A stretch of DNA of 27,613 nucleotides from a virus. The stretch covers positions 1 to 27,613 of the IMG/VR virus record IMGVR_UViG_3300042890_000061; one strand, 5' to 3'. Positions 1,253 through 26,294 of the stretch are shown piece after piece. How positions within the stretch are numbered: position 1 is the first letter of the stretch; the number at the start of each line of letters is the position of its first letter. The position numbers were made by a program, and so were the translations under genes. The notes below the pieces were generated by a model. The model had not been told where the DNA came from. It saw only the letters and a program-made list of their open reading frames with translations, and searched no databases.

Positions 1253-1260
1253 TATTTATG
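1253..1260 (-). promoter_or_regulatory. T4-type late promoter box before gp19 (CATAAATA)
   Basis: The minus strand reads GCATAAATAATAG. The box overlaps the stop codon of the sheath gene and lies 25 bases upstream of the tail-tube ATG. That spacing leaves a short leader containing AAGGAG. It matches the T4 late consensus TATAAATA at seven of eight positions. Confidence 0.65.
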
Positions 1261-3145
1261 CGGCAATTTCAGCAAATGTAGCGGTACCTCTTACAGAGAC
1301 AAAGTTAAGTTGAATGAAGTTAACAGAACGGATTGGTTGTACGAAAATATCGCAAACGAATTCGTTAGAATTTACTACATCTTCTGGATTGTTTGTTTCG
1401 TCACAAACAACTCTGAACGCTGTAATACCTCTTCTAGACTGAACGCTTCTCAAGTAAGGAATAACTAGACTTACGAAACCACTTCTTGTTGTTGCATCGT
1501 TTTGGTCAAACAATACATTGTCTGCGGCTTGCCCGATTGTCTTTTGTAATTCGATAAACAATCTACGAACGTTAACACGATTCATTGAAGTGTTCTTCAA
1601 CGTGAATGTCTTGTCACCAAACAAAACTGTACCACGACCAACTTGTGTGATAACTGGATTGATGGCTGCCTTGTACAATGTATCTCTGTCAGCTTGTGTT
1701 GGATTATATGCCAAACGAACTAAGTTTTGTACACGACCATTGCTGAAACCAGCTGGAGATAACCATGGCTCACGATTCAAATCGTTACGTGCCATGCAAC
1801 CTGCTGTGTCGGCATTCAATGGAACATAAACATATGTATCATTGTACTTGTCATATTGATATTTCCAACCGCTGTCTGCGACTGCATATGTTGAACGTGA
1901 AACTGTATCTGCCCATGCGCTGATAGCAGATGCTTCAGAACCAGCATTGTTAACAACGTTTGCTCTCAATGGAGAGATACAAACAACAACGTCTTTTCTA
2001 GTTTCAGCAACGTCAGCAATAATTCTGTTTGCTACTGTAGCGGATGCTTGACCAGCTACAATAATAGATGCTGGAACTTCTTGCTTGTTTGCAAGTAAGA
2101 CAAAAGATGTTGATCTATCGCCATCTGTCAATGCGTTACCATCAGAGCCACCAGCTAAAGAATATGTCTTAGGTGTGTTTACTGCTGTGTAAGTTGTGCT
2201 AGACAATGTGTTACCCCAATTAGAGCCAGCATTGTCGTGGGCAGTCCACCAAACATAATTTGAACGATCATTAATTACATCTTTGTAGTAATTGCTACCG
2301 CCAGTATCTGCTTTAGCATTAGAACCTTTAGAAAGGTAACCGAATTTCTCTATGACTGTATTTGCTGTACCAGTGATATCGCCAGTATTGTCTTGAATAA
2401 CAACGTGCATTTCATCACCAGATGCACCCAATGCGGCACCATTTGTAGATGTTCCTGGTGCAGAATCAAACTCACCAAAGAATTCCCAACGGCGTGTTGC
2501 TGTAGCACCAGATGCGCCAGTTAAGTGTGCAGATTCAATAGTCAATGATGTTGCATTAGCGATAGCAGTAACTTTAGTTGAGCGACCAGATAATACAATA
2601 AAGTCACCAACTTGCAATTGTGTATTTGCGGCAGTGCCAGAACCAGTAACTGTTGTAGAACCTGCTGATACAGTAAATGTTCCAGTTAATGCGCTAGTGT
2701 AAGCGGCCGAACTTGGGCAAACAGAAACTCTAAGTGAATTTCCTAATGCGCCAGAGTAACGAGCCGCCCAAGGACCAACGTTAAATGATGCTGTGTTAAT
2801 GTATGCGTCATCGTTCTTAATAGATGTACCAGTACCTGCTGTGCCTGAACCAGTTGTTGCTTCTGCTGTAGCATTCAATGCTGTGTTTGCGGAACGAACA
2901 ACAAACAATGAACCAGAGTAGCCCAAAAAGTTAGCGGCTGACAAGAAATCAACGGCGTTAGTTGCATTTGGCTTACCAAATCTTTGAACCAATTCTGTTT
3001 CGTTTGTAACTTGTACTGCTTTATCGATAGGACCCCAACGGAACTGACCAGCAAAACCGCCAGATGTTGAAGATACTGCCTGTGAGGAAGATACCAAATC
3101 TGTTTCGGTGATCTTGATTCCTGGTGAAATTAGACTTATAGCCAT
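1256..3145 (-). CDS. 18: Contractile tail sheath protein gp18
   Basis: The 629-aa product is the tail sheath subunit, which surrounds the tube and contracts during infection (T4 gp18 is 659 aa). The N-terminus has the sheath signature SPGIKITETDLVS, followed by GGFAGQFRWGPIDKAVQVT, typical of sheath proteins. The C-terminal core includes GRGTVLFGDKTF, VNVRRLFIELQKTI, and a final segment with FRVVCDETNN and VCDIFVQPIRSVNFIQL, the conserved sheath handshake region. Residues about 150-218 form an inserted Thr/Ser/Gly-rich beta module (GTFTVSAGSTTVTGSGT, then VGD, then NATSLTIESAH). This module closely resembles one in the 2046-aa protein of this window and probably sits on the sheath surface. 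The ATG has an AAGGAG Shine-Dalgarno, and an exact TATAAATA late box lies 48 bases upstream. Confidence 0.97.
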   Translation of the reverse strand: MAISLISPGIKITETDLVSSSQAVSSTSGGFAGQFRWGPIDKAVQVTNETELVQRFGKPNATNAVDFLSAANFLGYSGSLFVVRSANTALNATAEATTGSGTAGTGTSIKNDDAYINTASFNVGPWAARYSGALGNSLRVSVCPSSAAYTSALTGTFTVSAGSTTVTGSGTAANTQLQVGDFIVLSGRSTKVTAIANATSLTIESAHLTGASGATATRRWEFFGEFDSAPGTSTNGAALGASGDEMHVVIQDNTGDITGTANTVIEKFGYLSKGSNAKADTGGSNYYKDVINDRSNYVWWTAHDNAGSNWGNTLSSTTYTAVNTPKTYSLAGGSDGNALTDGDRSTSFVLLANKQEVPASIIVAGQASATVANRIIADVAETRKDVVVCISPLRANVVNNAGSEASAISAWADTVSRSTYAVADSGWKYQYDKYNDTYVYVPLNADTAGCMARNDLNREPWLSPAGFSNGRVQNLVRLAYNPTQADRDTLYKAAINPVITQVGRGTVLFGDKTFTLKNTSMNRVNVRRLFIELQKTIGQAADNVLFDQNDATTRSGFVSLVIPYLRSVQSRRGITAFRVVCDETNNPEDVVNSNEFVCDIFVQPIRSVNFIQLNFVSVRGTATFAEIAA

Positions 3146-3193: not shown

Positions 3194-3201
3194 TATTTAT
3201 A
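3194..3201 (-). promoter_or_regulatory. T4-type late promoter box before the sheath gene (TATAAATA)
   Basis: This is an exact match to the T4 late promoter element on the minus strand. It overlaps the stop codon of the large terminase gene and lies 48 bases before the sheath ATG. It would raise expression of sheath and tube over the terminase, in line with copy-number needs. Confidence 0.8.
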
Positions 3202-4825
3202 AAAAATCAGATTTGTGATAATTCTCTACCTGCCAGACCTGGCCACTTACATCGACTAATTGATTTTCTTCTTCGCCATTATTTATGAAGCCAAAAGGTG
3301 TGATTTCTTCCTCAATCATTTTGATTCTGGCTTCGTACAATTCTTTTCGTATATTGATGTTTGTCAACTCCTTAAAATATGAGTTTGTTGTTAACCACGA
3401 AAATAACACTAAAGGCATAACCAAGTCATCGTGATATCCTTCGTCAGCAGAATAACTATTCTTTCTTTCAATAAATGTTGAAATTTCTGCTATAGTATCT
3501 GCATCTGTAATGATAAGTTTTTTCTCTTCAACCATTGACTTTAAATTAGAGCAACCAATGCGTTTGACTTTTTTGTCCGTAATAACACCTAGATGTGTCT
3601 TACCCCCACCAAAACCCCCATTGACAACCTGCCCTTGAGGTGTTCTACTAACAGATATAATATTTTCATATTCATACTCACCATAAAGAATCTCTGCAAC
3701 TTGTTCTGAAGAATTTATTTCAATTAGAACGTATGCTTCATTGTATTCTTTACCCACTCTGTAGAGTACTGATGGATACAAAAGTGGACTGATTTGATTG
3801 TTTCTGTATTTACCCACAATCTTGTATGGCATCTGAGTTATGTCGATAATCTGAAACGCAGAGTAATCACCACCAACACCTTTAGCGGTGTCTGCAATGA
3901 TGCAGTACGCATGGTCCTTTTCAACCTTTTCGTAAATGTCAAGTCCATCTTTCTGATACATGATAGGTTTAGCAGACATTTGTGCAATAGAATCAGATGC
4001 AATGAGTGTGAGACTAGAACCCAAGAAGTTACATAGCACCTCTTGATTGAACTTTAACTCACCCAATAGTTTGCGCTGTGTGTCTGCCCACTTCTCATCA
4101 CGTCCAGGAATCTCCCAGTATGGAATGAATAGATTGACGAACCCGTTTCTATCGTTCTCAGCGTCATTCCAGAACTTCCAGAAGTGGTTGTATCCTAGTG
4201 GGGTAGAACTTAGCAGAATCTTTGTCGTTTCACCAGCAGAAATCGTAGGATAAACTGAGGTGAAGAATTGTTCTGCTACATTGTTCGGTATGATAGCGGC
4301 TTCGTCAACGTACAATAAGTTAACTGACTTACCACGAATACCTGATGCGCTTGTTGCGGCTGTGAATACTACTGAGCCATTCTCTAAAGCAATGTCACCT
4401 TTGTTCCAAGTAGTGACTCCTTGCTGTAACCATGTAGGAAGATTCTCATACATGATTTGATATCTGTGTAAAACTTCTCTAGCCGCAGTAGCTTTGTTCG
4501 CTAGAATCGCTACAGTCTTGCTAGATTGAAATAGCGTGTACCATAGAATGTAAGCGGCTGAGGTTGTTGTCTTACCTTGCTGGCGACCTTCCATAAGAAT
4601 AACTTTACGATTCTCATGGATAACTTTTACTTTGTTCTTCTGGCAGTCATAAAGTTTGAATGCCTGAAGCCCGTGGTCTAGCGTGACAATCTTACAATAA
4701 TTCTCAATGAAATATATCGGATCGTCAGCACACTTAATGTACTCTTCAATTTCATCTTTTGTGAAGTTGAGTGGTACGTTAGATGCTTTTAGAAGAGAAT
4801 TTCCTAGATAGGATTTTGCTGTCAT
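3197..4825 (-). CDS. 17: Large terminase subunit gp17 (packaging ATPase and nuclease)
   Basis: The 542-aa product is the DNA-packaging motor and headful nuclease (T4 gp17 is 610 aa). The ATPase domain shows a deviant Walker A, GRQQGKTT at residues 80-87 (T4 has SRQLGKTT), and Walker B VNLLYVDE at 168-175 with catalytic E175. It also has a coupling motif LLSSTP at 204-209. The RNase H-like nuclease domain shows D312 (IIADTAKGVGGDYSA), E369 (VLIEINSS) and the YHDDLV block with D466/D467, equivalent to the T4 acidic triad. All catalytic positions are intact and no intein or intron interrupts the gene. The ATG overlaps the small terminase stop (ATGA), implying translational coupling. The C-terminal tail after about residue 500 is low in conserved motifs, as is usual for the gp17 tail. 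Confidence 0.97.
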   Translation of the reverse strand: MTAKSYLGNSLLKASNVPLNFTKDEIEEYIKCADDPIYFIENYCKIVTLDHGLQAFKLYDCQKNKVKVIHENRKVILMEGRQQGKTTTSAAYILWYTLFQSSKTVAILANKATAAREVLHRYQIMYENLPTWLQQGVTTWNKGDIALENGSVVFTAATSASGIRGKSVNLLYVDEAAIIPNNVAEQFFTSVYPTISAGETTKILLSSTPLGYNHFWKFWNDAENDRNGFVNLFIPYWEIPGRDEKWADTQRKLLGELKFNQEVLCNFLGSSLTLIASDSIAQMSAKPIMYQKDGLDIYEKVEKDHAYCIIADTAKGVGGDYSAFQIIDITQMPYKIVGKYRNNQISPLLYPSVLYRVGKEYNEAYVLIEINSSEQVAEILYGEYEYENIISVSRTPQGQVVNGGFGGGKTHLGVITDKKVKRIGCSNLKSMVEEKKLIITDADTIAEISTFIERKNSYSADEGYHDDLVMPLVLFSWLTTNSYFKELTNINIRKELYEARIKMIEEEITPFGFINNGEEENQLVDVSGQVWQVENYHKSDFL

Positions 4826-6825: not shown

Positions 6826-7575
6826 TTAGCCTAACATATCAGAAACAGGTAAAGAATATGTGCTAATCATTTCAGCTTCCATAGCTTGAATTTCATCGGT
6901 AGCTTCGTCATATATCTTTTGCCCGTTAAATGTAACTCCTCCTGGCATAGAAAGCCCTTCAAACTTTTTCAAGTTTTCGCCCCATTGTTTTTTGATTTGT
7001 GATGTGCAATATCTCTGAAGCCATCTATCGTTATACATGTCGGTGTATGTGTCTGGATCAATTTTCTGATACGCTTCGATAAGCATATATTCTCCCAACA
7101 CAATCTTTTCACCCCAAGCAATGTCTACATATAACTTGTTTGAATGTCTTTGAAATCTGATACCTTGTTTGCCAACAAACAATTCTTCAGCTAAAGCAAC
7201 GTTTTGCAATGCCATGTAGTATGGTGCAAATGGTCCTGTATTGAAAGCAAACAAATCGTTAAGCGCAATTTGATATCTCAAATTGAATAGATTGTTTGTA
7301 GAATAGCTATTACCAATAGGAAGAATATTAGTGATTCCAATAACGGAGTCTTCGATAGACAGGTACTTGTTATCAATGTCGGTTTGTGTGACTTGTCGTG
7401 CTAGATAGACTTTCTCTGTTGCGTCATAGTGATAATCGTAGTAATATGAGAATGCCATTTCAATACAATCTTCAACTTGTTCGTCTGCTACGTTTATCTC
7501 TAAGAGAGGCGCACCTAGTCTTCTAAGGCAGAATTGTTTGAATTCTTCTCTTGATGCTGGTTTGCTTGTACTCAT
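6826..7575 (-). CDS. 13: Neck protein gp13
   Basis: The 249-aa product corresponds to T4 gp13 (309 aa), the partner of gp14 in the connector neck. The N-terminal SREEFKQFCLRRLGAPLLEI and DEQVEDCIEMAFSYYYDYH blocks are hallmark gp13 features: one helix-rich segment that predicts neck assembly, then an aromatic run. A later WGEKIVLGEYMLIEAYQ, then YNDRWLQRYCTSQIKKQWGENLKKFEG and LPGGVTFNG-like (MPGGVTFNG) complete the match. It is the first gene of the neck/terminase unit. It has an AAGGGG Shine-Dalgarno and an exact TATAAATA late box 30 bases upstream. It is shorter than T4 gp13, mostly at the C-terminus. Confidence 0.94.
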   Translation of the reverse strand: MSTSKPASREEFKQFCLRRLGAPLLEINVADEQVEDCIEMAFSYYYDYHYDATEKVYLARQVTQTDIDNKYLSIEDSVIGITNILPIGNSYSTNNLFNLRYQIALNDLFAFNTGPFAPYYMALQNVALAEELFVGKQGIRFQRHSNKLYVDIAWGEKIVLGEYMLIEAYQKIDPDTYTDMYNDRWLQRYCTSQIKKQWGENLKKFEGLSMPGGVTFNGQKIYDEATDEIQAMEAEMISTYSLPVSDMLG

Positions 7576-7932: not shown

Positions 7933-9177
7933 TTATGCCGCATTAGATGGGAAACTTCTTCCACTACCGTGAATAACTCGAACAGCACCTCGGCCACCAA
8001 AACCAGCCTGTCCTTGGTCATTTGATCCTGCTCCACCACCACCATAAAGTCCACCAAAAGACTGAGAAGCATTTTGATGCTGTGTACCGTGTGCTGGGCC
8101 GCCTGCGTAGCCACTACCACCAGTTCCACCACCACTACCGCCACCACCACCGCCACCGCCCTGTGGTCCATCCATATATTTGTCATTACCTCTAGGACCA
8201 TTAGGACCCTGCCCGAATAGTCCTACACCGCCACCGCCACCGGCTGATGATGTCCCGTCTACAATCGACCCACCTCCACCACCACCGCCACCAGAACCGG
8301 CCGATGCGCTTGAACCAGAACCGCTAGGATTTCCACCACCAGAACCTCCAGTGCCAGAATAACCACCAGCACCGCCGCCTCCTGGCGCACAGTTATTAAC
8401 TAAGTCTGTGCCGCCTTGACCGCCGTTACCACCGCCATCTCCAGCATGACTTCCGCCAGGACCACCATATCCGTGTGGGTTACCATATCCTGCGCTATCT
8501 CCTACTATTGGCCAATCACCCTTTTTACCACCAAAACCAGCAACAGTTCCAGTAGAGTTAAAATAACTTGTAGCACCTGACTGTCCAGTGACCTGACCTT
8601 CACTAGGCATACCTGCGCCCCACATTTGTGAAGGACCAGGTCCAAGCCCGCCGCCGTAACCCACAACTACTGTATATCCACTTCCTGGCGTAACTGGAAT
8701 TGAATTTTTCCAACCAAGTCCAGCACCACCACCAGCACCACCAGTATTATAAGATACTCCTCCTCCACCACCGCCGACTGCTACAACAGAAACAGATGTG
8801 ACACCTGCTGGCGCTGTAAACGTGTATGTGCCTGCTGTAGTGAACACTTCTTCACCAGACGGTGCATCTGTAGTAACAGAAGCACTAGCATCAGATGCAG
8901 AACCTGTTCCAACAGCATTCGTTGCAGTAACAGTAAACGTGTAAGATGTTGCGGCTGTTAAACCACTAACTGTAATGGGTGAACTGCTACCAGTTCCAGT
9001 CACGCCGCCTGGACTTGATGTGACTGTAAAGCCAGTAATTGCAGAACCACCATTGTTTGCTGGTGCGCTAAATGCTACTGAAACAGTAGTACCGCCAGTA
9101 ACTGTTGCGACTACGCTTGTTGGTGCGCCGGGTGGCGAAGCACCCGCTCCGCCAATCATCATTGCTCTAATAGACAT
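7933..9177 (-). CDS. Tail-tip adhesin: fibronectin type III domain plus polyglycine region
   Basis: The 414-aa product has a fibronectin type III domain at about residues 15-107 (APTSVVATVTGGTTVSVAFS, ITGFTVTSSPGG, SYTFTVTATNAVGTGSAS). A linking beta segment with TTAGTYTFTAPAGVTSVSVV follows, then about 270 residues of extremely glycine-rich sequence broken by short variable non-glycine segments. The end, GRGAVRVIHGSGRSFP, is a common terminus of glycine-rich phage fibre proteins. The layout resembles T-even gp38-type adhesins, in which polyglycine helices form a sandwich that displays receptor-binding loops; that comparison is by architecture and not by alignment. It shares one base with the fibre stop (TAATG), so the two are coupled. 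The GGN codons make this the most GC-rich gene in the window. Confidence 0.85.
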   Translation of the reverse strand: MSIRAMMIGGAGASPPGAPTSVVATVTGGTTVSVAFSAPANNGGSAITGFTVTSSPGGVTGTGSSSPITVSGLTAATSYTFTVTATNAVGTGSASDASASVTTDAPSGEEVFTTAGTYTFTAPAGVTSVSVVAVGGGGGGVSYNTGGAGGGAGLGWKNSIPVTPGSGYTVVVGYGGGLGPGPSQMWGAGMPSEGQVTGQSGATSYFNSTGTVAGFGGKKGDWPIVGDSAGYGNPHGYGGPGGSHAGDGGGNGGQGGTDLVNNCAPGGGGAGGYSGTGGSGGGNPSGSGSSASAGSGGGGGGGGSIVDGTSSAGGGGGVGLFGQGPNGPRGNDKYMDGPQGGGGGGGGSGGGTGGSGYAGGPAHGTQHQNASQSFGGLYGGGGAGSNDQGQAGFGGRGAVRVIHGSGRSFPSNAA

Positions 9178-10883: not shown

Positions 10884-11134
10884 AATTGTTCTCTCTCTTT
10901 AGTAATTTTTAATAATAGATGTTTGATTTCGCTGAGGTCTGACTTGATTATGTCTACTTCTCCACGAATCAATGCGATTTCGTTCGTACTCTTATTTATA
11001 TCAGAAATTTTTCTTTTCTGAATTTTATACTTTAAGAGAGAATCAATATCCGTATTTAGAATCGCTTTAGAATTCCTGTCTCTCTCTGTGAACCCACGGA
11101 CAGGTTCGGCAATTTTAATCTTTTCTACTATCAT
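10880..11134 (-). CDS. Small conserved-type phage protein with C-terminal coiled coil
   Basis: The 84-aa product is basic. Its N-terminus holds GFTERDRNSKAILNTDIDSL, and similar (R)D.(N/T)(S/N).AI.NTD segments occur in small proteins located before tail fibres in marine myophages. The C-terminal half has heptad-like spacing of Ile/Leu (IALIRGEVDIIKSDLSEIKH and onward), which predicts a coiled coil. It overlaps both neighbours by ATGA junctions: its start with the 2046-aa gene stop, its stop with the fibre start. A fibre-attachment or assembly role is possible but not shown. The tight coupling argues that it is real. Confidence 0.8.
   Translation of the reverse strand: MIVEKIKIAEPVRGFTERDRNSKAILNTDIDSLLKYKIQKRKISDINKSTNEIALIRGEVDIIKSDLSEIKHLLLKITKEREQL
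10993..11000 (-). promoter_or_regulatory. Internal late promoter box upstream of the tail fibre (TATAAATA)
   Basis: This is an exact TATAAATA on the minus strand, inside the coding region of the 84-aa gene and 109 bases before the fibre ATG. It would allow separate late transcription of the fibre, adhesin and 81-aa genes. Because it lies inside a gene, chance occurrence in AT-rich DNA is more likely than for the intergenic boxes. Confidence 0.55.
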
Positions 11135-14100
11135 GCTAGTGCAATTCCTCTTAAATCTTTAACTTTCGGAGCATAACTCGGATTGCTAGACAAGAAAACA
11201 ATCTTAATTGCGAAGTACTTGTACCCTTGGAATGTTCTTCCATCAGGTGTCGTATATGCAACTACATTATTTAGCACACGGAAAATGTCTTGTCCAGAAG
11301 CAACTGTAGAAAATGCAGATTCAACTGTCAATGATGTGTTATTTGCAATCGTAGAAACCACACGTTCTGTTCTAGCCGTACCAACTGCAATTATGTCACC
11401 AATCTTCAAGTCTTCAATGAAGCGAGTAGATGTGCCAATGACTGTTGTTGATACGTTAGAGATTGCAACTGTACCAGCAAGCAATTCAGAACCACCAGTT
11501 TTTGCTACAGACGGAACAACAAACTTTTCTTCTTTGTACTCATTCTGATTTAGTGTAAACGTTTCTGTTCCAACTAACTCCATAGGAGTATAGAATTTAT
11601 CGTCAAACGCATCTGTGTCGTTTTCGTTCAATAGCTTACAGTAAACTTTAACTGAAGTTCCTGGTGGACGATTAATTCTCAAGTAAGTGACCAAATCAGA
11701 CGCTTCAAATCCGTCATTCAACGTCACAACTTTAGTAATGTATCTAGATTGTGAAGAATACGGTCCTGTTGGATTCTCTTCATTACGAATAGTCATTGTT
11801 TGACTTTCCGCATTGGCTGTTGTAAAGTTAGTAGTAACTGTCAGATATGTATTATTTGCTACTGAAGCAACTCTACGATACTCATCTCCAAAGTAAGCAT
11901 ATTCACCAGGAAATACTTGTGAAGTAAAACTTGTACCAGAACCAATAACAATATTATTACTTGAGCCGTACGTAATTGTTCCACTCACACTTGTCTCAAA
12001 AGAATTATTGATAACGTTCTTATCGAAGTGGAAGATAATGTTCTCATCATCGATATATGGAGTAATATACTTATTCGATGTAGACAACGTTGCTCTTACT
12101 TGTAAAGACTTAAATCCATTTGTTGTCTCTGCTGAAGTCGTAGAGATTTGTTTTCTAGAACGAAGTATCAGTCTCTCATAATTCTTGATTGTTGTGTAAT
12201 CAGAATCAACTGCAAATGTACTGTCGGCAGTCTTAATGTCGTATGTGATATCTGTTCCAGGAAGAATTTGGTCACTAATAGCAGGAGTCAACGCATCATA
12301 TGTGAATGCAGTTGGTACTGAAATATTAGTCCAATACGCAAGTTTAGCAGAGGTATTAAACTCAGCAACTCTCATTGTAAACTTCATATCAGTATTTTGT
12401 TTTGCTGTCCATGTTCTGTCGGTAGAAGATGTGAATAGCAATCCACTATTGTATGCTTGTTCAATTCGTGTTTGTTTATCTGGTTCTGTTACATCAATTG
12501 CACCCAATTCAGCAACCCAAATTGCAAAGTCTGGATCATTGTTTTCAGGTTTAACTGCAAAGCAATATTCATTACCAGAATTTAAGTAAATAGGATTCTT
12601 GAATGTGAATTTTGTTGCCGCTGATGCATTATCGCTAACATTGATATTTCTATTATTAACAAGCGCAATGTCACCATCACTCACGAATTGTGGTGATGGA
12701 TATCCATTTTCAAGTTCACGAATTTCAATAGTAACGTTTCTGTTGTTATCTTGTGATTTTGTTTTGAAGAACAAATCAATAGAAGTCAAATAGAATCCTT
12801 TCGGATACGTATCTGGATCAACATAGAAACTCTGAGACAATGGGTCAGTACTTCTCACTGGTGGCGGAGGAATTGGCACACTTGCAGTTTCAACACGTTG
12901 AGAAGAAACAACTTTTCTACCCAAGTTTGTAATGTTGTCGGTATTGTTAAATGATACGTTGAACGGGCGAGAGTTAATTGTAACTGTACCAGTCTTCTGT
13001 ATAATACCTTGTGCAAATACGCTATTTCTTGCGCTAGTTAATGTTGTGCCTTCAGAATTCGTTGGGCTATCTGTGACTTTGAATTCACGCTGTCCTGTAT
13101 AGAATTTCTTAGAAGGAACTTCAAACAACAAATAAATTTGATTGTTCTTAACAATGAGTGGTTGTGATGTGTTTGCGCCATCAGCAATTACACGCCAAGT
13201 AACGTTTTCATCACCCAATGTTCCATCGCTATTAAATTTAGAATTTAACGTTTGTAATGTAGTAGAAGCGCCAATCAATTCAATTTGATAGCAATTTGCA
13301 GTAACATTAACGCCATCAAAGAATGCATAAACTCTAGAATTGTTTTTCAAACCTCTAGCTTGAATAGCGAATTCACGTTGACGCATCCAAAGTGCGGCTT
13401 CAACTTGAACAACTCTGTCAAATTTAACGTCTTGTGTAGAAGCAGTTGATTGATTACCAGATGCTAATTGATTGTATGCAACTTGAGTCGTTTGCTGTAA
13501 TGCAGTAGTGACGTTAAATTGTCCAACTTGAGTTGTCTGATCCGTTCCAGCAACAATTGCAGTTTGTTGAGTGCCACCAAGCCATTTTTGATTTAGTGGA
13601 GCAACTTCTGTATTCCATGCGTTAACTAGAGCCTTCCAGTTGTCTGCACCTTGGTCATCATTGTACACAACCGCTTGTGTCGGATCATTTACAACATCAA
13701 AGAAGTTATCAGTAAATGGCATGACAGACAATTCACCAGTCCAAACAAAGTTCAATTCTTCTGCGAGTCTTAATTGCTTAGAAGCATATTGTTGTTTTAG
13801 TCCAGGTGCTTCAACTTCAGTATACGGCAACATAATTTTGTTGCCAGAATTTATTGTTGTTGTTGATGCTGATGTAGAGTAACGAAGTCCAACCGTATTT
13901 GCATTATCTTGTAAGCAAGTTGCGAATTTATTTTTCTTGTCAATAGAACAATCTTTACCATCATTGGACGTAGATGCTACAGCCCAACCGGTAAATGGAT
14001 CAACAAGAATACCATTCTTGAATCTGTCTAAACCATCAGCATCCAATTCTGTTGTATCTGTTGCTTGTTTCTCTAAGAAACTCAATGCAGTAAAGTACTC

Positions 14101-17100
14101 AAGTCTTTCGAGTCTTTCATTCATCTTAGCAACATCACGCATTGTGAATCGTTTGTTTTTCAACAACTTGATTTTAACATCTGATGGTAATGATGGATAT
14201 GCTGGAATAGTTAATTCTGCAATCTCTAATGTATCAGGTTTAGTTGGTGGAGTCTCTGCTCTTTGATTACCTGCTTGTGCAGGAACACCATCGTTAATAC
14301 CGAACACACCACGATTGTTAATGTATACTTTAGCAATTCTGCCTTTGTAGTAAATCAAATCTGCGTCAAAGTCGGAACCAGATTCAGGAACACGAAGTCC
14401 AAATGTTGGAACTTGATATGTACCAACATCAATTGGATTTAAAGATGTGTTCGCAGTCTTAATTGGCCTAAAGTCAATACAATCACGCAACTTATAGAAT
14501 GCTTTGGTTGTCGGACTTGTAAAGTTAGGAATGTCACCAGTCGTAATTGTCGTGTTCGATGATACAGTATCATTAATTGGATATGAGTCAACTGACGCAT
14601 AACCAACACCTTGAGATGTATCGTGCGTAAAGTTATCGAAAACTGCTAACAATCTTCCAGTTGGAACGTAACCAGCAACTGGTGTAATTGTTCCATGCTC
14701 ATATGAATAATCACGCTGACCATTGTCTAATACGTAATTTGAAGTAACGTTTGTGTTTGCAGTAGAAGCAGCCACATCAAATGATGATGATTGATAAACA
14801 GCATGTAGCCGATAGATATCACCATAACCTAAACCAAACGGTCCAGAGATTCCATTGATGTGTGTGTTTGGATTGATGTTTGTTTGAGTATGGAAGTTTA
14901 ATGTCTTAACTTTCTCTCTAGCACTTGCTCTGTCCATAGATACAAGAATTTCAGCAGTAAATGTTGCATTCTCTTGAATGTCAATTTGTGCAGTACCTGG
15001 AGAAGTAACGTTAACACTTCTTGTGCTTCCTTTTCCACCATTAGCAGAAAGAGATAGAATTGTTCCTGATGGAATAATTTTAGTATGTGCAACGCCAGTA
15101 GCACCAGCACCATGCGCCGTTGCCAAAGTTAATGATGTAGCACTTGTAATAGATGCAATTCTATGTGTAGTAGTTGATCCGATTTTAATTAAATCGCCAA
15201 CATTGTATTGTGATGTAAATTGTGTGCCGCTACCAGTAACAGCAGTATTTGATACACCTACAGTAACAGTACCAGTCAACGCAGAAGTCTCTACGTTTGC
15301 ACCAGCATTGTTAACTACAACCATGTAGTAGTCATTTTTCTGAGTAGCATTTAATACATCCGTACCAACGAATGTTTCTGTAACAACGTCAGTCGCAACA
15401 GTCGCAACACCAGATGAGAATGAAACGCTAAATTTCTTTTTAAATCTAAATGCAGTTTCAACGTTTTCTGAAGAGTCACGTACAGTTCTAATTGCGTCAT
15501 ATGGCAATGGGAAAATCATCGTGTTGAACGATGTTTCTTGTAATACTGCACCGGCGGTAGTTGTTACAATATCAGCAAATCGTTTTGGTGTTGCAGAATC
15601 ATAAACGGCACGAACGTCAGCGAAGTTCTTACCTGAAAGCATTTCAATTTCGTACAAGTACAAATAGTATCTTGCATCGGCAGTACCTTTAGTACCACTC
15701 ACATATTCAATTGAACGCACTCTTGCAGTACCAATCGCATTACCAGCAACTGTTGCTGTTGAGTGCGCTAAGTTTGTAATAACTTGTTGTGGTGTGTCAT
15801 ACAAATCAACCAATGTCGATTCCATAATGTCCCAACCACCAACAACTTCTTTAACTTCAATGTATTGTCCATAATTGATTTGAGTCTTAGTCTGTTGCAC
15901 ATATGCTGTGCTAAGACCTTTTTGAAACTCAATTGGAGTTTTTGCAATAATTTGATTTCTATAACCAGACACATAAGATGTGAATGGATCAACTTCAACT
16001 AAAAGTAAATCTGAGTTACCGCCTTCAGTAGATACATATCTACCTCCGTTGGCGCCATTCAATAAATGCTCACGAACAGTAACGATTGGATCGGACAATG
16101 TATAATTACCAGATTCTTCATTTGTTCGTTTTGCTAAAACATCTTCCACTTTACTGTCAACAGTAATTGTTTTTCTTTTTCTAGCAACGCCAGTATCAAT
16201 TTCCGTAATCGTGATGAATTCATTTTCATCAGTAGTGGCATCTAATGCAACTTTAGTTAAAGTTGTATCAATTTTTAATCTATCAGCACCTGGTGCTTGT
16301 GCGTTAGGTGTTCCCTGTGCATTATCAACAAGTGATTGGTCTTCGATATAATCGACAAAAGACCTTGCTGGAACTAAACCAACCTTATAAGATGGTTGGT
16401 TTGAATATTTGTCGAGAATAATTGTTTGTGTGGAGTGCTTAACAAAATGGTCTGCAACATAAACAACGCCTTCAGAAACAGTAATCTTAGAACCGTAGTT
16501 ATAGATTTTCTCTGTTGCAAGTCCTTCGTCAACAACATTACGTACTGCGTTTGTTGTAGCCGCAGATGCATAGTTTCTGCCTGTTAGTGCTGAGGTAAAA
16601 AGTGTTTCTGAATTTGCGAACGTAGTATTGGCACGAAAATCAGCAACGGCAGTAACGTTAAGTACTTGGTCTGCACCAGTAGATAATATTGTATTTGCAG
16701 ATGTTGCAGTTAATGTTCCAGATGTGTTTGAAACAAAGATTTTAATTGCACCAGAAATTGGGTCTGTATAAAATGTTTCAATTGTAGCAGTATTACCCGT
16801 TGAAAAGGTAATTGTGTTTCCGGTTTGAAGCGTAGATGGTGCAACGTTTACTGTAAGAACTTGCGTTCCATTTGTCGCATAGCTAATAAACAATGTTTTA
16901 GGATCGTCTCCATCAATGTCTGTAACTAGTCCACAATATGCTTTGATGCCGCTGTTTGCGCCATATATTACAGTACCAACAAAATTCGCAACATCAACCG
17001 TGCTACCATTGTAGGTAGGTTGAAGTTTAACGAAACTTAAATTTAAGTCTAGATTTTGTTCGCAACCATCGACTAGTGCGCCTTGCTTGAAAAAATATTC

Positions 17101-17271
17101 AGCAAAGCGTCTAGTCTGCACTTGTTGAAGAGTTTGTGCTTGTGTGAGTTCTCTAGCCTGAACAGCACGTCCAGGACGATAGAGAACTCTTACAAACTTT
17201 TTATCTTCATCATAATCATCAAAGTATGGACTGGTGTTTAAGTCTATACCACCAGGGTTTGTATTTGCCAT
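11131..17271 (-). CDS. Giant DUF4815-type tail/baseplate structural protein (gp10-like position)
   Basis: The 2046-aa product begins with the DUF4815-type signature LNTSPYFDDYDEDKKFVRVL then YRPGRAVQARELTQAQTL, found in large baseplate-peripheral proteins of marine T4-like phages. Residues about 1285-1320 carry MRQREFAIQARGLKNNSRVY then AFFDGVNVT, and residues from about 1472 carry DPLSQSFYVDPDTYPKGFYL. Both are widespread in phage fibre-base proteins. At least three copies of a beta module (GT.T......T.V.GSGT, then GD, then TSLT) start near residues 665, 1760 and 1931. Residues 1230-1280 are Gln/Thr-rich and may be helical. It follows gp8 by 29 bases and precedes the fibre cluster. This fits a protein that links the wedge to the fibres, the job of gp10/gp11/gp12 or gp9 in T4, none of which is recognisable here. 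A structural role is very likely; the exact equivalence is inferred. Confidence 0.85.
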   Translation of the reverse strand: MANTNPGGIDLNTSPYFDDYDEDKKFVRVLYRPGRAVQARELTQAQTLQQVQTRRFAEYFFKQGALVDGCEQNLDLNLSFVKLQPTYNGSTVDVANFVGTVIYGANSGIKAYCGLVTDIDGDDPKTLFISYATNGTQVLTVNVAPSTLQTGNTITFSTGNTATIETFYTDPISGAIKIFVSNTSGTLTATSANTILSTGADQVLNVTAVADFRANTTFANSETLFTSALTGRNYASAATTNAVRNVVDEGLATEKIYNYGSKITVSEGVVYVADHFVKHSTQTIILDKYSNQPSYKVGLVPARSFVDYIEDQSLVDNAQGTPNAQAPGADRLKIDTTLTKVALDATTDENEFITITEIDTGVARKRKTITVDSKVEDVLAKRTNEESGNYTLSDPIVTVREHLLNGANGGRYVSTEGGNSDLLLVEVDPFTSYVSGYRNQIIAKTPIEFQKGLSTAYVQQTKTQINYGQYIEVKEVVGGWDIMESTLVDLYDTPQQVITNLAHSTATVAGNAIGTARVRSIEYVSGTKGTADARYYLYLYEIEMLSGKNFADVRAVYDSATPKRFADIVTTTAGAVLQETSFNTMIFPLPYDAIRTVRDSSENVETAFRFKKKFSVSFSSGVATVATDVVTETFVGTDVLNATQKNDYYMVVVNNAGANVETSALTGTVTVGVSNTAVTGSGTQFTSQYNVGDLIKIGSTTTHRIASITSATSLTLATAHGAGATGVAHTKIIPSGTILSLSANGGKGSTRSVNVTSPGTAQIDIQENATFTAEILVSMDRASAREKVKTLNFHTQTNINPNTHINGISGPFGLGYGDIYRLHAVYQSSSFDVAASTANTNVTSNYVLDNGQRDYSYEHGTITPVAGYVPTGRLLAVFDNFTHDTSQGVGYASVDSYPINDTVSSNTTITTGDIPNFTSPTTKAFYKLRDCIDFRPIKTANTSLNPIDVGTYQVPTFGLRVPESGSDFDADLIYYKGRIAKVYINNRGVFGINDGVPAQAGNQRAETPPTKPDTLEIAELTIPAYPSLPSDVKIKLLKNKRFTMRDVAKMNERLERLEYFTALSFLEKQATDTTELDADGLDRFKNGILVDPFTGWAVASTSNDGKDCSIDKKNKFATCLQDNANTVGLRYSTSASTTTINSGNKIMLPYTEVEAPGLKQQYASKQLRLAEELNFVWTGELSVMPFTDNFFDVVNDPTQAVVYNDDQGADNWKALVNAWNTEVAPLNQKWLGGTQQTAIVAGTDQTTQVGQFNVTTALQQTTQVAYNQLASGNQSTASTQDVKFDRVVQVEAALWMRQREFAIQARGLKNNSRVYAFFDGVNVTANCYQIELIGASTTLQTLNSKFNSDGTLGDENVTWRVIADGANTSQPLIVKNNQIYLLFEVPSKKFYTGQREFKVTDSPTNSEGTTLTSARNSVFAQGIIQKTGTVTINSRPFNVSFNNTDNITNLGRKVVSSQRVETASVPIPPPPVRSTDPLSQSFYVDPDTYPKGFYLTSIDLFFKTKSQDNNRNVTIEIRELENGYPSPQFVSDGDIALVNNRNINVSDNASAATKFTFKNPIYLNSGNEYCFAVKPENNDPDFAIWVAELGAIDVTEPDKQTRIEQAYNSGLLFTSSTDRTWTAKQNTDMKFTMRVAEFNTSAKLAYWTNISVPTAFTYDALTPAISDQILPGTDITYDIKTADSTFAVDSDYTTIKNYERLILRSRKQISTTSAETTNGFKSLQVRATLSTSNKYITPYIDDENIIFHFDKNVINNSFETSVSGTITYGSSNNIVIGSGTSFTSQVFPGEYAYFGDEYRRVASVANNTYLTVTTNFTTANAESQTMTIRNEENPTGPYSSQSRYITKVVTLNDGFEASDLVTYLRINRPPGTSVKVYCKLLNENDTDAFDDKFYTPMELVGTETFTLNQNEYKEEKFVVPSVAKTGGSELLAGTVAISNVSTTVIGTSTRFIEDLKIGDIIAVGTARTERVVSTIANNTSLTVESAFSTVASGQDIFRVLNNVVAYTTPDGRTFQGYKYFAIKIVFLSSNPSYAPKVKDLRGIALA

Positions 17272-17300: not shown

Positions 17301-18581
17301 TTAGAATTGAATGATTAGTTTAACGTCTTCAATTTGGTCAGCCGCTCTAGAGATTGGCACACGATTTTCGACATAGATAATGTCGCCGCTGTATGGCTGT
17401 AAGCCTGGAGTTGTGATAGCCGCAATAGTACCAGAAGCCGCTGACGTTCCACCAGTTACGCTTGCTGTGTTAGCGAATGGTAAGTGTACTGGCAATGTAG
17501 TAAACAAGTTTGGAGTTGTCCACTCAACGACAGATGCTGTGTTAGAACCGCTAGTGATTGTCTCATCTAATGCGAATGTACCAGATGGTGCAGACAATTG
17601 ATATCTGAATGATTGTCTATAAGAAGAAGCAACCGCTCTAGTAGTTGTGCCATACAAATATGGGTCACGAACGATACCAACTTGACGGAATTCGTTAGCT
17701 GTAGAGAATGTATTAGATTCAGTACCATCTAAACGAACGTTAATCATAATGTACTTACCGCCGAGTTCTTCAACTGCATTAGCACCATGTCCACCTTTTG
17801 GTGAAATGATTGCTGTAGCGGCTGCGGCACCAGATGCGAATGTAACTGTTGCTCTTGTGTAACCTGTACCAGCATTAGTAATTGTAACTGCTGTAACTGC
17901 GCCAGCAGTAATTGTTGAGTTGGCTGTAGCGCCAGTTCCGTCACCAGTAATAGTAACTGCTGGAGCAGAACCATAAGCAGAACCACCTGATGTAACTCGA
18001 ACAACGTGAACACCACCATCAACAGCGGCCGCTTGAACGTCCCACTGGTCTGTGCCATCGTCAGAATCTAATTGCTGAACTGGAATATAATCATTAGTCA
18101 AGAATTTCAACGCTTTAGCAGTTGTGACTGTATACATGTATTTCCAAATGTATCCGTCTGCTGATGTAAATGGTGATGTGCTTACGCCTGTTGGCTTTGT
18201 AGTAGAAGCCGCACCACCTGCATTCCACAAGCACTTATAAACGTTATAGTCTTCTGTAATTACATAGAAAGAATCAGATTCAATTAAGTTTGTATCTGCA
18301 TCGTCATAGTATGTGTATACTTCACCAGAAGTCCAATCGTGTCTTGGGACTGCGTGTGTTACGTCTGCTGTAGTAATACGTTTTGCGGCATACATATCAC
18401 GCCATGGAGTATATTCAACGTTAGCTGTTGAATTTACTGGTGTTGGTGGTGCATTATCGTCTGGAAATGCTGTGTTTTTACCGATGAACAAATACATAAT
18501 CGTATTTGCTGTTTCAGAAAATGCTTCTGCGAATTGCTGTGCATTGTGTACTCTGAATTTTGTAGTTACAATTGATGCCAT
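17301..18581 (-). CDS. 8: Baseplate wedge protein gp8
   Basis: The 426-aa product corresponds to T4 gp8 (334 aa), a wedge subunit that forms a dimer bridging gp7 and gp10. Matching features are the N-terminal IVTTKFRVHN (T4: IVTSKFRTEK), AVPRHDWTSGEVYTYYDD, DGYIWKYMYTVTTAKALKF followed by TNDYIPV, EFRQVGIVRDP and the end GDIIYVENRVPISRAADQ, then a hydrophobic LIIQF. The extra length comes largely from Gly/Thr/Ala-rich insertions. One spans about residues 182-260 (with GSAYGSAPAVTITGDGTGAT and NAGTGY), and another near the C-terminus contains GTFALDETITSGSNTASVVE. These inserts resemble repeats in the 1422-aa neighbour. The ATG has a CAAGGAG Shine-Dalgarno and an exact late box 49 bases upstream. 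Confidence 0.93.
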   Translation of the reverse strand: MASIVTTKFRVHNAQQFAEAFSETANTIMYLFIGKNTAFPDDNAPPTPVNSTANVEYTPWRDMYAAKRITTADVTHAVPRHDWTSGEVYTYYDDADTNLIESDSFYVITEDYNVYKCLWNAGGAASTTKPTGVSTSPFTSADGYIWKYMYTVTTAKALKFLTNDYIPVQQLDSDDGTDQWDVQAAAVDGGVHVVRVTSGGSAYGSAPAVTITGDGTGATANSTITAGAVTAVTITNAGTGYTRATVTFASGAAAATAIISPKGGHGANAVEELGGKYIMINVRLDGTESNTFSTANEFRQVGIVRDPYLYGTTTRAVASSYRQSFRYQLSAPSGTFALDETITSGSNTASVVEWTTPNLFTTLPVHLPFANTASVTGGTSAASGTIAAITTPGLQPYSGDIIYVENRVPISRAADQIEDVKLIIQF

Positions 18582-18650: not shown

Positions 18651-21600
18651 CTAAATTGACTGTTTATATGCAAAAACATTTGTAAATGTGCTTGCTGGTA
18701 ATCTATCAACAACCATAAACGTGGTGTTTGCTATACTCTCTACTGTGAAATACTCATTGTTTGCAACAAATACACTACCCAATTCAAAGCCCATCGGCAA
18801 AGATTCGTTAGCAAAGTCTGTTCCAGAACCAATTACAATTGGTGCCAATTCAGAAAGTAATGAGTCATCAACATAATCAATTGGCGTTGAACTAAACGCT
18901 GAAATCGTCAATGTAGAGAATTCTGCATTTGCTGACGAAACTGTTCCTGCAATCTTTGCATATTTTCTATAATCCGACTTAGTATATATTGTCGGGAAAA
19001 TTGTACCAAGTGTCTCTTCGCTCAATTGCCTGTCATAGAACGTTCCAGATATCGCTAAGTCTCCAATTGCTTCAATTGGAATTCCATCATATGGAAGAGA
19101 GTGTCCATCAGTAGGACTTGCTATATCAAGTACAAATTCTCCTCTGAATATGTCAGTTGAAGTTGGTTTTGCCGCTTGGCCATCTGCATATGGCGATGGA
19201 GACATTTTGACTGTCGCATCATATACTTCATCTAAAATTGCATCAAATCTAATATCAGATAATGTAGATATTGGTGTTGAAGAATAGTCCGAAACCAACG
19301 CATCATTATACAACTTATACTTGAATCCATGTCCTTCAGCACGTACAACGATTTCTCTATCTACAGATAGATTGTTCAATTGAACATTAGTTACTGGTAT
19401 CTGTTTAACGTATTCGTGATACGTTCTTGGGAATCTAAAGCCTAAAGTCTCAAGTGTCGATGTTTCAAATGTTGATGAGATTCCTTCGTATGCCGCTTGA
19501 GGTGTCACATCAGTAAATGTGCTACTTCCAACTTCAGCAATAGTAACATCGCCTAATCTAACATCATATAGTGATGCGATATCAGGTGTTGAACCTTTTG
19601 CTGGCAAGATAGAAGAATATGCAATGCTAACATCAACATGCATGTCAGCCAAATCTTCTGGTCTGATTGTGTAGTCACCAACTGCAACATCGGCTAATGC
19701 AGACACTGGAGTTAATTCAAACTCTGATAATAAAACTTCGTTCCATCGTTTTAATGCAATCGCATGTCTGCCAACTCTGTATTCTTTGACAACTTCTAAT
19801 GTTGAAGTTCCAGAAATAACTATCGGTACTTGTTTTACATATTCGTGATATGTTAATGGATATGTAGTGTATGAAGAACCAAATGTGGAAGTTTCATACG
19901 TAGTTGAATTTCCTTGATAAACACTTTCTGGCAAGATACTAGTGAATGTATCATTCTGAACTTGCGAAATAACAATATCATCTAAAATAATATTGTATAG
20001 TGCCGCAACGTTTTGTGCAGAAGCAAATTTCTGAGGAGCAACAGTAGAAGAAATTACATCCGCTTCAACGTGAATATCAGCAAACGATGAAGTAGGAATA
20101 ATGAAGTCATCAAACGTGATATCTTGTACGGCAGAAATCAACACCGACTGATAGTCTTCTAATAAAATTGATCCGTATTTTGTACGTTTGGTTCCATGAC
20201 CAGTTAGCTTATACTCTTTGCTAATATTTAATGTTGAAGTTTCAGCAATTAATACTGGCAATTCACGATGCATTTCAGTAGTAGACATTGATATACCAAT
20301 GTCATTGAGTGAAATTGCAATTTCAGGTCTAATTATTACTGGTTGTGGAATAGTAATAATCGATTGTACGAGTGGTACTATTCCACTAACAGCAAACGTT
20401 TCAAAATTGAGTCTAGTGATAGTATTGTAAACACCAACATCAATCGAATTATCAATGTATAAATTCAGGATCGATTGATATGCTGGATTTTCGTTATACA
20501 AGTCACTAAATCTAACGTCCTGCAATACTGAAATTGGAGTGCCTGCCCAGTAATCACCATAAACACCAAGAGGTGTCATTGGTAAATTACCATACGTATT
20601 GTTTCCGTATCCAGGAATAATGTCTAGTTTTGATACAACAAATTTTGTTGTTGGTAGTGTAGCAGATGTTGATGTAACATCAAGTTCGAAAGGTGTCTGA
20701 ATAATAAATGAGTGTCTTGCGCCACCTTCATTAATTACAGCGCCAACGTCAGTAATTCCAGTTTCGTCATCGCCTTCTGGCACCAAGTGAATAACGTATT
20801 CTTGAACATCCAACAAGTCTGTATCAAGTCTGAGAACAGGTGCTTCAACTTTAATTGTCCAATTAATACTAGAATATTCATACTCACCACCAACATAAAT
20901 CTGTGCAAATATCTGCACAAGCATTCTACTGATTTCTTCATTATTAATCAACTCAGCCGCAACATCAAGGTTGTTGAGAATGTTAATCTCACCAAAATAT
21001 GTAAGACCAGCAGGGTGAATAATTGACTTTAGTGTGTTAGAATATGTCTGAAACGTTAAACCACTCTTAATAACATAAGAGTAGTCTTGATAGTAGTATG
21101 AGTCTTGAATAATCTTGTAATCAATTTTACCGTCATCGTCTAACCAAACACCTTGTTTAATTCCAAGACCAGAAATAACTGGACTTAATATCGCATTGCC
21201 ATCACCAAGGGCAGATGCGGATGCGTTAGCCGCACTATAGTTGATACCGAAATTAACAATCTCAACAGCACGAATAGAACCGATACCTGTAATATTATTT
21301 GATGTATCTACAGTAACAGTTGCGCTCTTACCTTGAACGTTTGTTGCAATTAAATTTGCACTCGAACCGGTTGTTGTAGAAATTGAGATTGAAGGTAGAT
21401 TTGCAGAACTATAACCAGTACCAAAGTTAGTTAATTCAATACGTTTGATCGGTCCAACTACTGCCCAATCTTCATTCTTAATGATATCGTAATAACTACC
21501 ATCAGCTTTCATTTGAAAGCCGTCTTCAAATAAAAGGTCGAATGTTGTTGATTCTACGACAGATGCAATTTGTCCAGCCGCAGATGTTCCAGACCCACCA

Positions 21601-22919
21601 GTAAAGACTAATGTGTTTCCAACGCCATAATTAGAACCGGCATTACTAATTGTGATTAACTTATCCGACAACAATCCCAAAGATGCAATTGTTGTGTCTT
21701 GTAGTGTGATAGAAGGTTTCTTAAAATAACCCTCACCTCTGTTGATAACAGAAACTTGAGATACTTCACCAACAGTATATGTGTTCGCACCAGACGTTAC
21801 GCTGTATGTGTTTGCTAGTTCAGTAACTCTAACAATGAATCCCGAACCACCAGTACCAGTATTGTTAATTGTTGCGGCAGTATTTAATTGATAGCCATGA
21901 CCAATCGTATTTACAGTTAATGCACTAATTGGAGATTCTTTAATAGAAGAAACTCTAGCCTGCGCTTCAGAACCATCACCAGAAATAATGATGTTGTCGC
22001 CTTCTTCATATCCAGAACCGCCATCTACAATCGTTACACCTGATATGATACCATAAATTGTTGTGACAAGATTAGCATCATCAATATCAACAATACTTTC
22101 ACCAGCAGTAAAAGTACCGCTGACAAGTTTAAGTGTCATCTCAGCAACTTCTCTGGAACCAATAAAGAATTTTTTAATGTCAACTACGTTCGCAAGAAAT
22201 CCGGAAGACTGCCCACGAATAGTTTTATTTAAGAATAAGAAAATGTCTCTATCAAACGGTACGCCTAAAGAATTGGTGCCAGTCGCAACGGCAACTGTTC
22301 TGATAATTTGAGTCTTTTCAAAATTACCATCAGACACACGTAGAACGTCAGTTCCAGGATAGTAAAAATCAATATCTTCATCATATAGAAGTTTGAATAA
22401 GAATCTATATGACTGTTCATTACTCTTCGATTCATAAAAATCTTTGAAGTATTGTGCTACAAGTCTTTTATCGCCATAGTACGTTGCAGGTATGCTAGGA
22501 TACAATTCTTCTCTGAGATAATCAACGTATTTGTCAACAGAAGTTTCTAGCGTCTTATAGTTTAGAACATTTCCGGTAGCACGCCCTACGTTATCTTTAG
22601 TGATATTGACAGTTGCGGTTGCGTTTGATGTTTGCCCCTCAACAACTTCACTATAATCAAATACAGTTCTTGTTGTCAACTTAACAATGATAGAGTCTGT
22701 TTTGACTTCTTTGATAATCGCAGTTGCGCCTGAAGTGGCACCCACAACTGTTTCTCCAACTACAAACGTTCCAGTTTTACTGGTTAACGTTATAGTTGAT
22801 GATTGCATCCATTCATAATAGGCTTGCATGAACAGCAAGAATCTTTCCGTATCAACGGAAGAGTTCTCACCAACAAATGAGCCTACATTTAATGATGGCT
22901 TGAAAAATGCATCATTCAT
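18651..22919 (-). CDS. Large baseplate protein in the gp7 position, with tandem repeats
   Basis: The 1422-aa product lies between gp6 and gp8, the place of T4 gp7 (1032 aa), but I cannot align it to gp7. Residues about 1-40 and 120-200 form a helical domain (ERFLLFMQAYYEWMQ; DKYVDYLREELYPSIPA; then KSNEQSYRFLFKLLY and FYYPGTDVLRVSDG) that recurs in large tail proteins of marine myophages. Between them, residues 50-107 carry a GTFVVGETVVGATSGATAII module. Residues about 290-583 hold six GxGY-type beta repeats (GGSGY, IGHGY, RGEGY, AGSNY, FGTGY, FGINY). Residues about 741-1318 consist of four diverged repeats of about 145 residues. The last 100 residues resemble the beta module of the 2046-aa protein. 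It starts just after the gp6 stop. A wedge role is inferred from position. Confidence 0.85.
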   Translation of the reverse strand: MNDAFFKPSLNVGSFVGENSSVDTERFLLFMQAYYEWMQSSTITLTSKTGTFVVGETVVGATSGATAIIKEVKTDSIIVKLTTRTVFDYSEVVEGQTSNATATVNITKDNVGRATGNVLNYKTLETSVDKYVDYLREELYPSIPATYYGDKRLVAQYFKDFYESKSNEQSYRFLFKLLYDEDIDFYYPGTDVLRVSDGNFEKTQIIRTVAVATGTNSLGVPFDRDIFLFLNKTIRGQSSGFLANVVDIKKFFIGSREVAEMTLKLVSGTFTAGESIVDIDDANLVTTIYGIISGVTIVDGGSGYEEGDNIIISGDGSEAQARVSSIKESPISALTVNTIGHGYQLNTAATINNTGTGGSGFIVRVTELANTYSVTSGANTYTVGEVSQVSVINRGEGYFKKPSITLQDTTIASLGLLSDKLITISNAGSNYGVGNTLVFTGGSGTSAAGQIASVVESTTFDLLFEDGFQMKADGSYYDIIKNEDWAVVGPIKRIELTNFGTGYSSANLPSISISTTTGSSANLIATNVQGKSATVTVDTSNNITGIGSIRAVEIVNFGINYSAANASASALGDGNAILSPVISGLGIKQGVWLDDDGKIDYKIIQDSYYYQDYSYVIKSGLTFQTYSNTLKSIIHPAGLTYFGEINILNNLDVAAELINNEEISRMLVQIFAQIYVGGEYEYSSINWTIKVEAPVLRLDTDLLDVQEYVIHLVPEGDDETGITDVGAVINEGGARHSFIIQTPFELDVTSTSATLPTTKFVVSKLDIIPGYGNNTYGNLPMTPLGVYGDYWAGTPISVLQDVRFSDLYNENPAYQSILNLYIDNSIDVGVYNTITRLNFETFAVSGIVPLVQSIITIPQPVIIRPEIAISLNDIGISMSTTEMHRELPVLIAETSTLNISKEYKLTGHGTKRTKYGSILLEDYQSVLISAVQDITFDDFIIPTSSFADIHVEADVISSTVAPQKFASAQNVAALYNIILDDIVISQVQNDTFTSILPESVYQGNSTTYETSTFGSSYTTYPLTYHEYVKQVPIVISGTSTLEVVKEYRVGRHAIALKRWNEVLLSEFELTPVSALADVAVGDYTIRPEDLADMHVDVSIAYSSILPAKGSTPDIASLYDVRLGDVTIAEVGSSTFTDVTPQAAYEGISSTFETSTLETLGFRFPRTYHEYVKQIPVTNVQLNNLSVDREIVVRAEGHGFKYKLYNDALVSDYSSTPISTLSDIRFDAILDEVYDATVKMSPSPYADGQAAKPTSTDIFRGEFVLDIASPTDGHSLPYDGIPIEAIGDLAISGTFYDRQLSEETLGTIFPTIYTKSDYRKYAKIAGTVSSANAEFSTLTISAFSSTPIDYVDDSLLSELAPIVIGSGTDFANESLPMGFELGSVFVANNEYFTVESIANTTFMVVDRLPASTFTNVFAYKQSI
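18955..20698 (-). repeat. Four diverged approximately 145-residue tandem repeats within the 1422-aa protein
   Basis: The repeat units start near residues 741, 882, 1026 and 1169. Common landmarks are a strand such as STLNISKEYKLTGHG or STLEVVKEYRVGRH, then L(L/V)S(D/E)(Y/F), and a (T)P(I/V)S.L.D(I/V).F.D motif (TPISVLQDVRFSDL; VLISAVQDITFDDF; TPVSALADVAVGDY; TPISTLSDIRFDAI). Two units then have FADIHVEADV or LADMHVDVSI, and a closing TYHEYVKQ(V/I)P at the boundary to the next. The third boundary has YRKYAK. Spacing of the closing motif is about 143 and 148 codons. Identity is low to moderate, so the duplications are old. Confidence 0.75.
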
Positions 22920-26060: not shown

Positions 26061-26294
26061 TTATCCCACATGTTTAAAGTATTGAATCTGTCTCTCTTGG
26101 TCTGCAACCCATTCATCTGATGGCTTACCTTCACCTTTGTAGTATCGTAATGGCTTACCTGTCTTCTTAGAGACCAACGCCCACTTGCCGTCTACTTGTT
26201 TAAGTGTCTCAATTAATTCTGGACCAAAAACTTCTTCTTCCCACTCTTCTTGCGAAAGTGTGGTGCCTTGTATAAACTGTTTGAATTTTTTCAT
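26061..26294 (-). CDS. Small conserved-type phage protein (WALVSKKTGKP motif)
   Basis: The 77-aa product has a C-terminal block WALVSKKTGKPLRYYKGEGK then PSDEWVADQERQIQYFKH. Similar WALVS..(T)GK.L.(Y/F)(Y/F)....KPS......E(R)..(Q/H)(Y/F)FK segments recur as small proteins or domains in many T4-like marine phages; function is unknown to me. The N-terminus MKKFKQFI resembles the start of T4 capsid-targeting peptides (MKTYQEFI). It overlaps the kinase-like gene by ATGA and ends 3 bases before the gp5-like ATG. It is therefore co-translated with baseplate hub genes. It is acidic in the first half (EEWEEEVFGPE) and basic in the second. No membrane segment or signal peptide. Confidence 0.8.
   Translation of the reverse strand: MKKFKQFIQGTTLSQEEWEEEVFGPELIETLKQVDGKWALVSKKTGKPLRYYKGEGKPSDEWVADQERQIQYFKHVG

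Follow-up and report, generated by a model that had tools for sequence, protein, structure and literature searches.

A small beta module shared by the tail sheath and other structural proteins of a T4-like myovirus

The DNA analyzed here (the window) is a stretch of 27,613 bases from an IMG/VR virus record, and its minus strand carries the structural gene cluster of a T4-like myovirus. The cluster includes tail tube genes, the sheath, the large terminase, a gp15-type sheath stabiliser, gp14-like and gp13-like neck proteins, a 2046-aa DUF4815 protein, a gp8-type wedge protein, a 1422-aa wedge protein, and gp6. The features considered below are as follows, with the evidence for each in brackets.

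1256 to 3145, minus strand: T4-like tail sheath protein (gp18) of 629 aa (Pfam, PHROG, AlphaFold2 with Foldseek)
2492 to 2698, minus strand: beta module of the sheath, residues 150-218, in the domain II loop (similarity, predicted strands, empty sites elsewhere)
7039 to 7044, minus strand: empty module site in the gp13-like neck protein, ORF 6826-7575 (relatives L064 and L068 have 70 additional residues, the module, at this point)
11131 to 17271, minus strand: 2046-aa DUF4815/phrog_358 structural protein (PF16075, 2.7e-36; phrog_358, 2.3e-297)
11278 to 11490, minus strand: module copy 3 of the 2046-aa protein, residues 1928-1998 (similarity)
11794 to 12000, minus strand: module copy 2 of the 2046-aa protein, residues 1758-1826 (similarity)
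15079 to 15288, minus strand: module copy 1 of the 2046-aa protein, residues 662-731 (similarity; AlphaFold2 pLDDT 93)
18654 to 18887, minus strand, recognisable over 18705-18839: degenerate C-terminal module copy in the 1422-aa baseplate wedge protein (profile and pairwise comparison)

The sheath ORF exceeded the cut-offs of all three Pfam models (PF17482, PF04984, and PF22671), and the core domains expected of gp18 (PF04984, PF17482, and gp18 domain III) were all found. It belongs to the tail sheath family phrog_23 (3.9e-106), and its AlphaFold2 model resembles T4 gp18 (9mkb) and the sheath of Klebsiella KP1 (9f4a) with a Foldseek E of about 1e-39. Among cultured phages, Ochrobactrum phage vB_OspM_OC has the nearest sheath (44.6%). 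As in T4-like sheath loci, genes for the large terminase and the tail tube adjoin the sheath gene: TerL (3197-4825) lies upstream, its closest relatives being the terminases of Methylophilales phage Melnitz and cyanophages (about 50%), and tail-tube-type ORFs (700-1227 and 108-689) lie downstream, in a gene order identical to that of Mosig and HTVC008M. Judged by gene order, the 2046-aa DUF4815 protein is a probable baseplate component. The cluster also holds an ORF at 26291-27241 matching a Zeta_toxin-type kinase (PF06414, 2.7e-6). The ORF at 7933-9177 has a single fibronectin type III domain and, after it, a glycine-rich domain; it probably encodes a fibre-tip or adhesion protein.

An earlier note on this DNA had claimed that sheath residues of about 150-218 share a module, at close to half identity, with the 2046-aa protein near residues 662-728, that further copies occur near residues 1760 and 1931, and that a weaker one ends the 1422-aa protein. 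Each of these copies was recovered. When the sheath segment was searched with phmmer against all 22 window proteins, the 2046-aa protein was matched at three places (scores of 35.5, 27.7, and 16.9 bits; lowest i-Evalue 1.2e-11), with no other significant match. In a shuffle control the segment scored 34.5 bits against the 2046-aa protein, whereas the best of 500 shuffles reached 6.3 bits. Identity to the sheath copy is 48% for copy 1 (32/67) and copy 3 (30/63), and 29% for copy 2 (19/66). The sheath segment alone failed to detect the C-terminal copy of the 1422-aa protein (-0.4 bits); the module profile placed it at residues 1361-1405 (16.3 bits, i-Evalue 9e-6 over 22 proteins), and pairwise comparison with copy 2 gave z = 9.7. 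Of 51 relatives compared with the 1422-aa protein, 35 carry the module, and fuller copies occur in L137, L144, and L154. The C-terminal copy in the window is real but degenerate.

Structure prediction pointed in the same direction. The full-length sheath model, built from 50 sequences, had a pLDDT of 87.7, with 91-95 in the blocks flanking the module. Within the module, strands were predicted at residues 156-159, 165-169, 182-185, 188-197, 200-203, 211-214, and 216-219, and a short helix occupies 173-176. A separate model of the 2046-aa protein's copy 1 showed the same element order, and the order common to the sheath and 2046-aa copies is E E H E E(10) E E E. The models thus support the view that the sheath and baseplate copies are one module with one predicted fold. 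Foldseek searches with the isolated module gave nothing below 0.001 in the PDB, and 14 matches below 0.001 among viral models (best 7e-6). Tail-fibre and baseplate proteins are among these 14, and models of the S-TIM5 sheath and of a DUF4815 protein lie just above that value. Pfam holds no family model for the module, and a weak match to Dna2_Rift (0.0016) was below the cut-off and was rejected as a homologue.

The sheath module sits between the motifs GxLGNSLxVxVCPS and RRWEFF..FD.APGTS. From the nearest viral contigs, 70 full-length sheaths were compared, and every one has an insert at this site, mostly a recognisable module and in some cases a diverged one. The site is empty in Stenotrophomonas phage Moby, Acidovorax phage ACP17, Xanthomonas phage X1, and Synechococcus phage ZZ01, where 54-65 residues separate the two anchors compared with 123 when the module is present, and the T4/RB27 sheath aligns across the site without interruption once the module is omitted from the alignment. 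The segment is therefore not ancestral to all T4-like sheaths, and the presence/absence variation in sheaths that the earlier note had named as support was found; gp13 and gp14 homologues vary in this way too. From these alignments, the sheath copy reads as a clean in-frame insertion in the domain II loop of a T4-type gp18. Several cyanophage sheaths carry different, longer inserts here; those of P-SSM7, S-8S53, and S-PRM1 (L098, L089, and L092) are unrelated inserts of ~150-280 residues at the identical site, which marks it as an insertion hot spot. Mean identity is 0.58 in the module and 0.61 in the remainder of domain II, and the small difference gives no strong sign of relaxed constraint.

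In a tree of the sheath core, the rooting of which is insecure, sheaths with the module, with a diverged insert, and with an empty site are intermixed, the empty ones at two separate places. The copies themselves were compared in FastTree trees which, being based on 70 residues only, are weak. Of the sheath copies from many phages, 43/44 fall in one clade (support 0.989), all 14 representatives of copy 3 of the 2046-aa-type protein group together (0.96), and copy 2 forms a clade as well (0.93). For the five phages with both proteins known, the sheath copies resemble the baseplate copies of their own genome no more than those of other genomes. Since the copies group by site and not by genome, recruitment was old and followed by vertical inheritance, and intragenomic gene conversion was rejected on the same grounds. 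The suggestion that the module was shuffled within one genome thus holds in part: insertions with clean junctions in unrelated proteins support movement between proteins, but the movement is old, and recent exchange within a genome is not supported. ZZ01 has an empty sheath site and a module in its ~2000-aa protein, a pattern which suggests, short of proof, that the module resided in the baseplate protein first. In our reading the sheath acquired its module long ago, probably from a pool of baseplate and fibre domains, and passed it on by vertical descent, and some lineages later lost or replaced it.

With the module itself as a tblastn query, phage genomes yielded nothing beyond the sheath of Ochrobactrum phage OC, probably because of divergence and low-complexity filtering, and profiles were needed instead. 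Whole-record searches found 2-8 copies in each of four near-genome-sized relatives, a single copy, in the ~2000-aa protein, in ZZ01, Mosig, HTVC008M, and Melnitz, and no module in RB27 and Moby. The gp13-like neck proteins of L064 and L068 contain the module between clean junctions as an addition of exactly 70 residues; the spacing is 113 residues in these two (the L064:914 ORF encodes 322 aa) compared with 43 in the window and all other relatives compared. The gp14-like neck protein of L056 (203 ORF, 381 aa) likewise has a module with clean junctions, the spacing being 138 residues with it and 50-99 without. In other contigs the module stands first in small proteins, ahead of a phrog_613-type head protein. 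Such proteins in L177, L178, L179, and L180 start with MALWG and continue, after the module, as phrog_613 ("head protein") or phrog_3086 (unknown) types; they are possibly head decoration proteins. Among the PHROGs, the module forms the N-terminal, virion-proximal domain in at least eight families, most of them tail fibres (among them phrog_1980, 1591, 17834, 24607, 28473, and 38424), beginning at profile residue 3-13 with E down to 3e-9. Profile searches of the PDB identified it at the N-terminus of the F2-pyocin side fibre (25VE/25VJ; 2.1e-7), where the match covers the whole module (profile positions 6-66 of 71), and of the distal tail protein gp20 (23GD; 9e-6).

The F2-pyocin fibre, gp20, and the tail-fibre PHROGs thus share with the window sheath a module of ~65 residues by profile. 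They differ in that theirs is N-terminal in a fibre or tail-tip protein, whereas in the window it is inserted within the sheath and is repeated in the baseplate protein. Within the sheath family, domain I of T4 gp18 (residues 98-188) is a beta-barrel inserted in domain II between residues 97 and 189, and could serve a like purpose. The window module follows the LGNSLRV motif, which places its insertion site beyond that of domain I. A kinship of the module with domain I was rejected (hhalign probability 0.6%, with a single sequence on one side), though the two may be distantly related in fold. The 1137-aa sheath of cyanophage S-TIM5 has a related, more degenerate stretch at 598-740 but is longer and distant. 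Evseev et al. (2022; PMC9230969) described additional outer domains, Ig-like ones included, in the sheaths of large phages. Like these, the window module is an extra, probably outer beta domain gained by the sheath core; it differs from the Ig-like ones in that no Ig family was matched in Pfam up to E 10. Their description makes the kind of domain known, and the module and its spread are the new part: our literature searches on the module and on DUF4815 found nothing specific, and no description, for related phages, of such a module in fibres and baseplate as well as in sheath, neck, and head.

The window contains another exchangeable motif as well, GSGYxxxPxVTITGDGTGATA, at 17796-18038 (ORF 17301-18581) and 21750-22067 (the 1422-aa protein). 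Moby, ACP17, and X1 have it in their sheaths, at about residues 250-320 and away from the module site, and it is also present in phiM9. Domain I of the T4-like RB27 gp18 begins with a similar TPGSNYAVGDKITV, and the T4 fibre-retraction mutation G106S (PMC3004832) lies in or adjoins GSNY at the start of domain I.

What the module does can be read in several ways. A chance or compositional likeness of T/S/G/A-rich beta segments, or independent convergence, might be suspected from the biased composition and the near absence of direct tblastn matches. This is highly improbable, as the shuffle control already contradicts it, the copies align over their full length with a shared predicted fold, and profile matches reach into PDB chains and unrelated families. 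The module could also bind glycans or the cell surface, as the earlier note suggested; weak multivalent adhesion along sheath and baseplate would fit the weak adhesion proposed by Evseev et al. for Ig-like sheath domains. Phage endosialidases, depolymerases, and a tailspike are among its best fold matches in the PDB, but these are sub-threshold (E >= 0.014, TM about 0.4). The conserved residues are structural G, D, V, and T; each copy has about 1.2 W+Y with no W or Y conserved inside the module, and Pfam gave no CBM match. The module is moreover virion-proximal in most tail-fibre families and is carried by neck proteins too. The lack of a conserved aromatic and the N-terminal position in fibres mildly disfavour glycan binding, which we consider rather unlikely.

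The main rival to a docking or contact function is that the module is purely structural filler, which makes the sheath more stable or bulkier in its extended or contracted state and has no specific partner. Isolated phages with an empty site demonstrate that sheaths function without it, unrelated inserts occupy the site in other lineages, and stabilisation has also been proposed for additional sheath domains (PMC9230969). Against this, the module has been retained at one site across a deep clade, and the neck, fibre, and baseplate copies exceed what generic filler needs, so that filler is a possibility we hold only tentatively.

We favour, with a probability of roughly 0.6 and largely by analogy, an exposed, dispensable plug-in surface domain that provides contacts, for instance in the docking of fibres or of the baseplate. 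In T4, the differently placed domain I of gp18 is reported to protrude and to bind both the baseplate and long tail fibres in the retracted state, while taking no part in gp18-gp18 contacts (PMC3004832), and in A-1(L) the sheath is contacted by long tail fibres (PMC10966104); both examples favour a docking or contact surface. The sheath segment would accordingly be one copy of a self-contained small beta-barrel of ~70 residues used as a plug-in domain of phage particles. By sequence comparison, its sites are shown to be the sheath domain II loop, fixed positions in DUF4815 proteins, the wedge C-terminus, the neck proteins of a few relatives, the front of a head protein, and fibre N-termini. 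The two ends of the module probably lie near each other, which would allow gain or loss without disturbing the host protein. On the sheath, the module would protrude and act as a spacer or contact surface, docking folded-back fibres or touching the baseplate or a neighbouring subunit. Some points count against docking: fibre N-termini may attach through another part of the protein, T4 domain I occupies a different site and lacks profile similarity to the module, and the module gives no strong sign of relaxed constraint. A more general form of virion docking, in which sheath, neck, and baseplate copies bind each other or the N-terminal copies of fibres, like to like, seems improbable; if true, an added module copy on a structural protein would create a new attachment or parking place for fibres.

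The clean empty and occupied sites show that one small exchangeable domain has been inserted into unrelated head, neck, sheath, baseplate, and fibre proteins of phages. This helps explain how large phages decorate their particles and points to a domain without a Pfam model, and phages with and without the module provide a natural experiment on the role of outer sheath domains.
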